Below, in pieces: positions 26,885-30,407 of a stretch of 58,834 nucleotides of DNA (the stretch's first letter is position 1; each line of letters starts with the position of its first letter). A model generated the notes under the pieces. It made no database searches. It was not told where the DNA came from and worked only from the letters and a program-made list of their open reading frames with translations. Source of the DNA: Oscillospiraceae bacterium (lineage in GTDB: Bacteria; Bacillota; Clostridia; Oscillospirales; Oscillospiraceae); NCBI GenBank assembly GCA_017412765.1, contig JAFPWN010000062.1, positions 1 to 58,834 on the forward strand, given 5' to 3'. The position numbers and the translations under genes were made by a program.

Positions 26885-26913
26885 TTGCCAACGATTCCGG
26901 GATAAACTATAAT
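26885..26913 (+). promoter_or_regulatory. Promoter of the HPr-dehydrogenase gene
   Basis: TTGCCA (26885-26890), 17 bp, TATAAT (26908-26913), immediately behind the glmM terminator. Confidence 0.65.
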
Positions 26914-26943
26914 ACGGTTACCAGAAATGATCAGGAGGTCGAA

Positions 26944-28242
26944 ATGAAAACTGCACGCTTTGAGATAAAGACCGAGGTCGGGATCCACGCGCGCCCCGCA
27001 GCCATGATAGCGCAGATCTGCGTTGCGCTGCCGAGTCAGATCACTTTCAGATGCGGTGAGCGCACTGCCAGCGGCAGCAACCTCATCCAGCTTCTGCGCC
27101 TCGGCGCGAAGAAGGGCTCTGTGCTCGATATTACCGTCGATGGCGGCGATGAGGAAGCCTCGCTTGAAAAGATCCTCGAAATACTGAGCGCAAGATTCTC
27201 GGATAAAAAGCACGAACCGAGGTTCAGAATCGCCTTTTTCGGCACGAAGGACTACGACAGGATATTCTTCTCCGAGCTTATTAAGGACACCGGCGAAGGC
27301 TCGTTCAACTGCGATATCGACTTTTTCTCCGTGCGCCTCACGTCGGAAACTGTTTATCTCGCGCAGGGGCACGACGCTGTCTGCATTTTCGTAAACGATG
27401 AGTGCCCGCAGGAGACGGTCAGAGCGCTCCACAGCTACGGAATAAAGCTCATTCTTCTGCGCTGCGCCGGCTTCAACAACGTCGATCTGCCGGCGGCGAG
27501 GGAGTGCGGCATAACCGTCTGCCGCGTTCCGGCGTACTCTCCCTATGCCGTAGCCGAGCACGCGATGAGCATAATAATGACCGCGAACCGCCGCCTGCAT
27601 AAGGCAGTAAACCGCGTGAAGGAAAATAACTTCGCGCTCTCGGGGCTTATGGGACTCGACCTGCACAACAAGGTCGCGGGGATAGTCGGAACGGGACAGA
27701 TAGGACAGTGCATGGCGCGCATCTGCAAGGGCTTCGGCATGAGCGTCATCGCATGGGACGCGTATCCGAATCATAAGCTCGAGGAGGAGGGGCTTCTCGC
27801 CTACGTTGAAAAGGACGCGCTCTTTGAGAGAGCCGACCTCATCTCGCTCCACGCGCCGCTCGTATACGGCGAAGGAGGGACCTATCACCTAATCGACGAG
27901 GCGGCGATGGCCAAAATGAAGGACACGGCGATGCTCGTCAACACCGCGCGAGGCGGGCTTGTTGATACTGAGGCGCTGATCGACGCGCTCAAAAGGGGCA
28001 AGTTCCACGCAGTCGCGATCGACGTCTATGAGGGCGAGGAGGCGAACGTCTACACCGACCACTCGGACGACTATCTCATCAACGACGTAACGGCGCGGCT
28101 TCAGATGTTCCCGAACGTGGTGCTGACAAGCCATCAGGCGTTTTTCACGCGCGAGGCGCTCCAGGCGATAGCCTCCGTCACGCTCGAGAGCGCGCATAAC
28201 TTCAACGAGGGTCTGCCGCTCGGAGACGCTGAGTGCAAATAA
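26944..28242 (+). CDS. HPr-like phosphocarrier domain fused to a D-lactate/2-hydroxyacid dehydrogenase
   Basis: A 432-residue fusion. Residues 1-86 are an HPr domain with the phosphorylatable His15 in GIHARPA and the LGAKKG loop; the regulatory position 46 reads Asn (preceded by Ser45) instead of Ser. Residues 93-432 are a D-isomer 2-hydroxyacid dehydrogenase of the D-lactate type: NAD-binding GTGQIGQ, active-site Arg in NTARGGLVD, and late His in SHQAFFTREAL. The expected reaction is pyruvate to D-lactate with NADH. The HPr part would receive phosphate from PTS Enzyme I. AGGAGG precedes ATG 26944. It is a single gene with its own promoter and terminator. No other PTS gene lies nearby. Confidence 0.92.
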   Translation: MKTARFEIKTEVGIHARPAAMIAQICVALPSQITFRCGERTASGSNLIQLLRLGAKKGSVLDITVDGGDEEASLEKILEILSARFSDKKHEPRFRIAFFGTKDYDRIFFSELIKDTGEGSFNCDIDFFSVRLTSETVYLAQGHDAVCIFVNDECPQETVRALHSYGIKLILLRCAGFNNVDLPAARECGITVCRVPAYSPYAVAEHAMSIIMTANRRLHKAVNRVKENNFALSGLMGLDLHNKVAGIVGTGQIGQCMARICKGFGMSVIAWDAYPNHKLEEEGLLAYVEKDALFERADLISLHAPLVYGEGGTYHLIDEAAMAKMKDTAMLVNTARGGLVDTEALIDALKRGKFHAVAIDVYEGEEANVYTDHSDDYLINDVTARLQMFPNVVLTSHQAFFTREALQAIASVTLESAHNFNEGLPLGDAECK

Positions 28243-28279
28243 AAAATAGGTGCGAGCTTTGACGGCTCGCACCTATTTT
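28243..28279. terminator. Bidirectional terminator
   Basis: A perfect 15-bp stem (AAAATAGGTGCGAGC / GCTCGCACCTATTTT) between the converging dehydrogenase and Nudix genes. Confidence 0.85.
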
Positions 28280-28816: not shown

Positions 28817-29689
28817 TCAAGCTTTCGCCAGGTCAGAGAGAACGTAGCCTATATCGCCGTCGATGCAGATCGAGCGATTGGCGATCTCCGTCGGCGCGGT
28901 CGCGTCGCCGTAGTTCAGGCAGGCGTAGGTCGCGTCCTCGTCCTGCGCGGTCATGCGCCAGAAGGGGTATTTTATTATCCCCGGGGTGTTATAGCCCACT
29001 CCGAGCTCAAGATAGAGCACCTTGCCCCGGCGGGTGCGCAGGAAATTGGAGTAGCGCTCGGCGGCACTGTGCCAGCCCTCGTCCTCGACGAATCTGTCGT
29101 CCGAGCGGAGATTCAGCGTCATCGGCTTGCCGCAGACAGGGCATTTCGGAATAAGCTCCGTCGGCACGCGCATATTTTCCTGCCGCGAGTACATTTCGCG
29201 GACGGCCGCCTCGTTATCGTAGGTCTTGTCGTGGCAGGGTACTGAGCACTGGAAAAGTCCGTAGTCGCCCTGCGTGTAGAAAAGGCGCTTTTTGTCAAAG
29301 CCCGCCTTCTGAAAGCAGTGATCGACGTTCGTCGTGATGACGAAGTAGTCCTTGTCGCGCACAAGCCGGAAAAGCTCTTCATAGACCCTTTTCGGCGCGT
29401 CCATGTAGCGGTTTACGAAGATATAGCGCGACCAGTACGCCCAGAATTCCTCCTCGGTCGGGTATGGGTAAAAGCCGCCGGAGTACATATCCTTAAAGCC
29501 GTATTTTTTGCCGAAGTCGGAAAAATACTTATCAAACCGCTCGCCGGAGTAGGTAAAGCCCGCGCTTGTCGAAAGTCCCGCTCCGGCGCCTATAACCACA
29601 GCGTCGCAGTCGTCGAGCGCCTTGCGCAGCGCCGCGATCTTATCCGAGTATGCTTCGGTAGATCTCGAGATCCTCGAGCTTGAAAACAT
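28817..29689 (-). CDS. Class M sirtuin (SirTM), protein ADP-ribosyltransferase
   Basis: This 290-residue sirtuin has GAGAGLSTSAGFTYSG (NAD loop), FVITTNVDHCFQKAGF (Asn/Asp of the active centre) and TQGDYGLFQC. Zinc cysteines lie in FQCSVPCHD and CPVCGKP. The terminal LELGVGYNTPGIIKYPFW block is typical of macrodomain-linked SirTM. Characterised SirTMs transfer ADP-ribose to lipoylated GcvH-L in Firmicutes. ATG 29689 has GAGGTG and lies inside the upstream macrodomain gene, giving a 50-bp overlap in another frame. No gcvH-L or lplA2 gene is in the window, unlike the known operons. Confidence 0.92.
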   Translation of the reverse strand: MFSSSRISRSTEAYSDKIAALRKALDDCDAVVIGAGAGLSTSAGFTYSGERFDKYFSDFGKKYGFKDMYSGGFYPYPTEEEFWAYWSRYIFVNRYMDAPKRVYEELFRLVRDKDYFVITTNVDHCFQKAGFDKKRLFYTQGDYGLFQCSVPCHDKTYDNEAAVREMYSRQENMRVPTELIPKCPVCGKPMTLNLRSDDRFVEDEGWHSAAERYSNFLRTRRGKVLYLELGVGYNTPGIIKYPFWRMTAQDEDATYACLNYGDATAPTEIANRSICIDGDIGYVLSDLAKA

Positions 29690-30407
29690 TGAAAATCACC
29701 TCAATATCGCTTGCTTTTCTGAAATTTCTGACCGTTTCGACCGCGATCTCCGCCGCGCGCCTCTGCGGAAATCCGAAAACTCCCGTGGAGATGCAGCAGA
29801 AGGCTATGCTCCCGCAGCCGTTTTCCACAGCGGCTTCGAGGCAGGAGCGGTAAGAGGAGGCGAGCAGCTCACAGTGCTTTTCTGTTAGCCGCCCGTCCAC
29901 GATGGGGCCGACGGTGTGGATGACGAAAGAGCACGGAAGATTGTATGCCGGCGTGATTTTCGCCTCGCCCGTCGGCTCGGGATGACCCTGCCTTTTCATT
30001 ATCTCCGCGCACTTATTGCGAAGCTGGATTCCTGCGTAGGTGTGAATGCAGTTGTCAATGCACCCGTGGCACGGCTGATAGCAGCCGGTCATGCCTGAAT
30101 TCGCGGCATTTACGATGGCGTCGCACTCAAGAGTCGTGATGTCGCCCTGCCAGAGATAGATCCCGGGCTCGACGGGCGCGAGGTCAGCGAGCGCGGTCAC
30201 GCCCTTCTCATGCGCCGCCTCGCGCAGGTATTCATCCTGCACTCTGAGAAATTCGCCGCTGACAGGCGCCGGCATACGGACGTTAAAAAGGCTTCGCAGA
30301 AGCCGCTTCTGATCGTATTCATCGCGCGGTATTTCGATATCGCCGTACCGCGGGTCCTCGTCAAGAAGGCTTTTAATGAGAAAAAGCCGCTTTTCGGTGT
30401 GAGTCAT
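29640..30407 (-). CDS. Zinc-containing macrodomain (ADP-ribosyl hydrolase)
   Basis: This 255-residue protein has an N-terminal helical part (1-85) followed by a macrodomain: WQGDITTLECDAIVNAANSG, ITPAYNLPCSFVIHTVGP, and the phosphate loop FCCISTGVFGFPQ. Between strands lies the zinc motif GCYQPCHGCIDNCIH, the mark of the SirTM-linked Zn-macrodomains that remove ADP-ribose from modified proteins. It is the first gene of the operon and would reverse the action of the next gene. Confidence 0.93.
   Translation of the reverse strand: MTHTEKRLFLIKSLLDEDPRYGDIEIPRDEYDQKRLLRSLFNVRMPAPVSGEFLRVQDEYLREAAHEKGVTALADLAPVEPGIYLWQGDITTLECDAIVNAANSGMTGCYQPCHGCIDNCIHTYAGIQLRNKCAEIMKRQGHPEPTGEAKITPAYNLPCSFVIHTVGPIVDGRLTEKHCELLASSYRSCLEAAVENGCGSIAFCCISTGVFGFPQRRAAEIAVETVRNFRKASDIEVIFNVFKLEDLEIYRSILG

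Follow-up and report, generated by a model that had tools for sequence, protein, structure and literature searches.

Fusion of a PTS domain to a non-PTS target is known from LacS, which carries a IIA domain. HPr itself occurs as one domain of longer proteins in the multiphosphoryl transfer proteins of the FruB/FPr and IIA-Man/HPr types, where the partners named are PTS domains (IIA, EI) (PMC2405797). HPr as a separate protein also influences glycolytic enzymes. Two reports describe stimulation of PykA by unphosphorylated HPr in Vibrio vulnificus and the lack of PykA binding by HPr in E. coli (PMC5987630), and altered kinetics of GapA with HPr variants, effects that were modest and judged insufficient to explain the phenotype (PMC12445079). 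An older finding on GapA of Bacillus subtilis concerned HPr phosphorylated on Ser46. These PykA and GapA precedents are limited. Regulatory domains have also been found fused to 2-hydroxyacid dehydrogenases, namely the ACT/ASB domains of phosphoglycerate dehydrogenase, and relatives of the D-lactate dehydrogenase considered here are tetrameric and allosteric (PMC4230899).

Here we describe an HPr domain joined to a D-lactate-type dehydrogenase. The use of a PTS domain as a built-in regulator is already known; here the domain sits on a fermentation enzyme. A literature search, with subscription papers mostly outside its coverage, found no description of an HPr-D-lactate or HPr-hydroxyacid dehydrogenase fusion, in agreement with the first-pass annotation of this DNA, which knew of no such system.

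The gene lies at 26944..28242 on the plus strand of the window (the whole stretch of DNA analysed, 58,834 nucleotides) and runs from ATG to TAA as one uninterrupted frame of 432 aa. The HPr domain, residues 1-86 (26944..27201, +), is recognised by Pfam (PTS-HPr at residues 4-81 with E 5.7e-19 and 68.4 bits, the cut-off being 23), by NCBIfam (HPr family with 62.3 bits, cut-off 47.9), by its modelled fold and by the conservation of His15 and Arg17. The translation places both residues within GIHARPA (codons 26986-26988 and 26992-26994, +) and reads Asn at the HPr-kinase site, residue 46 (27079-27081, +), as had been pointed out at first reading. A linker of approximately residues 87-93 (27202..27222, +) is variable in sequence and nearly constant in length. 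Among the 66 fusions measured (L072 is the only one left out), 57 have a spacing of 28 from D69 to A97, 8 have 27 or 29 and one has 39.

Residues 94-432 (27223..28239, +) form an LdhA-type D-lactate dehydrogenase with Arg336, Glu363 and His397, whose catalytic roles we assume to be those assigned in the Lactobacillus enzyme. Pfam detects 2-Hacid_dh_C at residues 209-399 (E 6e-48) and 2-Hacid_dh at residues 114-424 (E 4.2e-26). In a PDB sequence search the enzyme part (approximately residues 95-423) matches the solved D-lactate dehydrogenases of E. coli (5z1z), Pseudomonas aeruginosa (5z20) and Fusobacterium nucleatum (5z21) over the whole length of that part, with E from 8e-92 to 6e-91; in a Foldseek comparison it aligns to them at approximately 43-46% identity, and the catalytic residues are shared. 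The best eight PDB matches are named D-lactate or D-isomer specific 2-hydroxyacid dehydrogenases and start at query residues 93-95. The ORF, the Pfam domains and the PDB matches therefore agree on the proposed fusion of HPr to a D-2-hydroxyacid dehydrogenase, and the enzyme is complete, as claimed. The two best NCBIfam dehydrogenase models are D-lactate dehydrogenases, and no dehydrogenase model among the 25 NCBIfam models listed reaches its cut-off (the best scores 210 bits against 540). The protein is thus not assignable to VanH, PRK12480, PRK08605 or the other named D-lactate dehydrogenase groups among them. By homology, the enzyme would reduce pyruvate to D-lactate with NADH. Dehydrogenase domains are all that Pfam detects beside HPr, which sets the protein apart from the multiphosphoryl transfer proteins with their HPr and other PTS domain.

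An AlphaFold2 model was built from 57 aligned sequences (50 fusions and 7 unfused enzymes) and has a mean pLDDT of 85.9 and a pTM of 0.76. Residues 1-83 show the HPr order of elements, E-H-E-E-H-E-H. The pLDDT dips at residues 81-90 (mean 62) and again at 361-380 (59 and 54). Given the low confidence of the modelled linker, no docking pose between HPr and enzyme is supported. The top Foldseek matches are the P. aeruginosa, F. nucleatum and E. coli D-lactate dehydrogenases, with TM to target mostly 0.83-0.9; the 50 best Foldseek rows are all dehydrogenases with approximately 320-347 aligned columns, and none is an HPr fusion by title.

A scan of genome contigs, which reaches only close relatives and may miss more distant fusions, returned 78 related loci. 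These comprise 66 full-length fusions (58-94% identity) and three that are truncated where the contig ends (L064, L069 and L078); the other loci are 8 unfused enzymes and 1 remote relative. The architecture search proposed earlier therefore yields 66 further distinct full-length fusions and the three cut ones, and no homologue was found interrupted by stop codons, a defect that the first-pass annotation had named as fatal to its idea. By record title the fusions belong to Erysipelotrichaceae, Lachnospiraceae, Oscillospiraceae and Eubacterium, mostly as metagenome assemblies and many from ruminants; L035 (NK3D112), L055 (Floccifex porci) and L066 ([Eubacterium] cellulosolvens) have records without a MAG or uncultured mark. 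Plasmid carriage was considered and rejected: 529 plasmid records match, all below 60% identity, and in the best 15 of them the alignment starts no earlier than query residue 73 and so misses the HPr domain. A 297-aa open frame at G067:C227 was rejected as a second HPr fusion; it contains an ordinary HPr ORF of 88 aa.

In a genus sample of 34 genomes, 3 have the fusion, 29 an unfused relative of 45-50% identity, 2 neither and none both. At E 1e-60, matches occur in 53 of 291 genomes of a class sample and 27 of 200 of a family sample, and only that of the window's genome is fused; all the others start at query residue 76 or later. A second match at E 1e-45 is absent from 47 of 50 fusion genomes, and the other 3 carry only a relative of 32-36% identity. 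Ldh_1_C was not found in the window's genome by a search that was positive in 13 of 14 controls, and for this reason the fusion may be the only dedicated lactate dehydrogenase of that genome. In a tree of the enzyme part (67 fusions and 36 unfused enzymes) the fusions form one group with support of 100/100, next to the unfused enzyme of G362, the nearest unfused relative at 59% identity. A split precursor, with an HPr gene just before the G362 enzyme, was not found in the 7 kb of sequence searched. A quick HPr tree, with few columns and long branches, likewise unites the fused domains in a single group (SH-aLRT 97). Members of different named families are interspersed in the enzyme tree, and the neighbours of the fusion loci mostly differ, which suggests horizontal transfer of the fusion, subject to the uncertainty of MAG labels.

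The gene lies outside any PTS operon; at first reading it was said to stand alone. The adjoining ORFs look unrelated: by eye, the upstream one is glmM-like and the downstream one, on the opposite strand, NUDIX-like. Location in a PTS operon or conserved neighbourhood was rejected in a comparison of 67 loci, some on short contigs: by crude ORF clustering no neighbour family occurs in more than 10 of the loci, although groups of up to 10 do share neighbours, and no PTS gene was seen by eye among the recurring families. The gene had been credited with its own promoter and terminator. The promoter stands as a consensus match, a sigma-70-like TTGCCA-17-TATAAT at 26885..26913 (+) with 11/12 consensus bases and a spacer of 17, one of 2 promoter-like sites in the region where 0.8 are expected. 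A ribosome-binding site, AGGAGGT, lies at 26933-26939 (+), just 5' of the ATG at 26944. The terminator is only partly supported. A strong stem-loop between the convergent genes, at 28243..28279 (no strand assigned; -28.3 kcal/mol, z -6.9), is terminator-like on the minus strand, and the terminator scan made no plus-strand call there. Further along, at 28817-30407 (-), two overlapping ORFs encode a macro-domain protein (PF01661) and then, by eye, a Sir2-like ORF, in which no Pfam family matched at 0.001; the pair resembles known sirtuin-macrodomain pairs.

Conservation was counted over 67 distinct fusions (the 66 and the window protein), with the contig-cut loci and the duplicates L003, L083 and L084 excluded. 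Arg336, Glu363 and His397 are identical in 67/67. Like free HPr and Crh, the fusions have a complete HPr domain with His15 and Arg17; these two residues and Ala16 are identical in all 67 and Pro18 in 66. The active-site loop 13-19 holds five of the eight invariant HPr columns (hypergeometric 3e-5 under random placement, indicative only as the sequences are related). Mean pairwise identity is 56% in the HPr part against 79% in the enzyme part, and dN/dS, summed over 18 chosen close pairs with some sequences shared between pairs, is 0.077 against 0.031. The HPr part is therefore under purifying selection, though it evolves faster than the enzyme part.

The fused domain differs from free HPr and Crh in being covalently joined to an enzyme and in the residues of its surface. 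Position 46 is Asn in 62 fusions, Asp in 2 and Lys, Gly and Ser in 1 each, so that 66/67 of the family, the window protein among them, lack the Ser46 of HPr-kinase substrates (regulatory HPr/Crh). Against 32 free HPrs, a biased sample with near-copies (two from the window's genome and the best match from each of 30 fusion genomes), the fused domains have a signature of Ala20, Ala23, Cys26, Val27, Ala42, Asn46, Val47 and Gln49, with further differences at positions 48 and 51; residues 47, 48 and 51 stay hydrophobic. Gly54 is present in 32/32 free HPrs and replaced in 57/67 fusions. The surface around helix 47-54 is part of what free HPr presents to its partners. On the evidence of Ala20, Ala23, Val27, Asn46, Gln49 and the loss of Gly54, this surface is altered across the family, and it would be unsafe to assume that Enzyme I recognises the fused HPr. 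This is the chief evidence against the regulatory idea, although the altered face could also now bind the enzyme part. One report describes Gly54 of HPr as highly conserved and its Asp variant as lying near His15 (PMC12445079).

PTS partners were searched in the genomes of 50 of the 69 fusion loci. Enzyme I, whose absence was to count against the regulatory idea, is present in the window's genome (98% complete), adjoining a free HPr (ptsH) and an ORF in which EIIC and EIIA domains are found, and in 49 of the 50 fusion genomes; one has no match. Each of the 50 has at least two HPr matches (range 2 to 9). HPr kinase was found in 50 of 53 genomes (the 50 fusion genomes with G000, G003 and G004) and had no match in 3, in a count where G003 and G034 share identical coordinates and are probably one genome counted twice; the search was positive in 3 of 14 controls, B. 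subtilis not among them, and may miss some kinases. The kinase is thus usually present while site 46 of the fusion is non-Ser in 66/67. Residue 15 is other than His in 6 of the 32 sampled free HPrs, of which L001 and L132 resemble each other. L001 (G000 contig 13, 50740-50997, -) is the second free HPr of the window's genome, with Arg15 and Ser46, and is somewhat Crh-like; the ptsH beside Enzyme I has His15 and Lys at the position aligned to 46. HPr roles in this genome look divided over three proteins. Elsewhere in the fusion genomes, the free paralogues L137, L139, L142 and L143 have Asp or Glu for His15 and keep Ser46.

We propose that the HPr domain serves this D-lactate dehydrogenase as a covalently joined PTS receiver. 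Phosphate would pass from PEP through Enzyme I to His15 of the HPr domain, which would be unphosphorylated during rapid sugar uptake or at a low PEP:pyruvate ratio. The phosphorylation state may shift the seating of HPr on the enzyme, whose catalytic domain follows directly after the linker, and so alter the response to pyruvate, with an effect comparable to that of ACT domains on phosphoglycerate dehydrogenase. Here the regulatory domain is an N-terminal HPr and would read phosphorylation instead of a small ligand. The sign is a guess by analogy with PykA of V. vulnificus, where, unlike here, HPr and enzyme are separate proteins: the unphosphorylated form would be active, and fast sugar uptake would open D-lactate formation. 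With Asn46, the module would escape control by HPr kinase, and the Ser46-phosphate form of the older GapA finding would be excluded.

We regard as fairly probable the core of this proposal, a PTS-read switch in which Enzyme I would phosphorylate His15 and the state of His15 would set the rate of pyruvate reduction. The wider proposal receives a slight preference from us: a fermentation-enzyme class of single origin across several gut Bacillota families, its activity set by built-in HPr phosphorylation, with lactate controlled by PEP:pyruvate and sugar uptake and uncoupled from HPr kinase by Asn46. The regulatory idea fits the invariance of His15 and Arg17, the retention of Enzyme I, the purifying selection on HPr and the rarity of a second related enzyme in fusion genomes, and as a whole it is partly supported. 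The domains, their conservation, the partner genes and the single clade are shown; phosphorylation, its effect on pyruvate reduction and the sign of that effect are inferences.

It is unlikely that the HPr fold is a structural appendage that aids folding or assembly, with His15 kept by shared descent or structural constraint. The faster evolution of the HPr part and its changed surface would suit such a role; yet residue 15 is Arg, Asp or Glu in some free paralogues, so His15 is probably dispensable for the fold, and the fusions keep it in every case. We think it distinctly unlikely that HPr tethers the dehydrogenase to Enzyme I, with phosphorylation non-regulatory and pyruvate released beside the enzyme that reduces it. 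Enzyme I releases pyruvate on taking phosphate from PEP, and this product is the substrate of the dehydrogenase; the presence of Enzyme I in 49/50 genomes and the kept His15, Arg17 and hydrophobic residues 47, 48 and 51 agree with docking. Pure docking should make an invariant His15 unnecessary, however, and the gain is doubtful for a small molecule that diffuses fast. Invariant His15 and Arg17 and the multiple HPr matches per genome also suit an extra phosphocarrier that hands phosphate to an enzyme II or another partner and regulates the dehydrogenase little or not at all, but with another carrier at hand in 50/50 genomes, helix 47-54 altered and PTS genes unseen among recurring neighbours, we hold this to be very improbable. 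An assembly chimera or pseudogene, a reading encouraged by the metagenome-assembled or uncultured titles of the majority of records, is refuted in practice by the independent genomes, by the other full-length fusions (L035, L055 and L066 included) and by uninterrupted, selected reading frames, and is next to impossible.

Should the regulatory reading be true, HPr would regulate a non-PTS enzyme from within the same chain, and this single protein would allow the metabolic control exerted by HPr to be measured with its partner already given. The residues that occur naturally at positions 46 and 54 offer a test of the roles of those sites. In ruminants, the source of many of these bacteria by title, lactate build-up matters for animal health. 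The fusion would link sugar uptake in gut bacteria directly to lactate production at the post-translational level.
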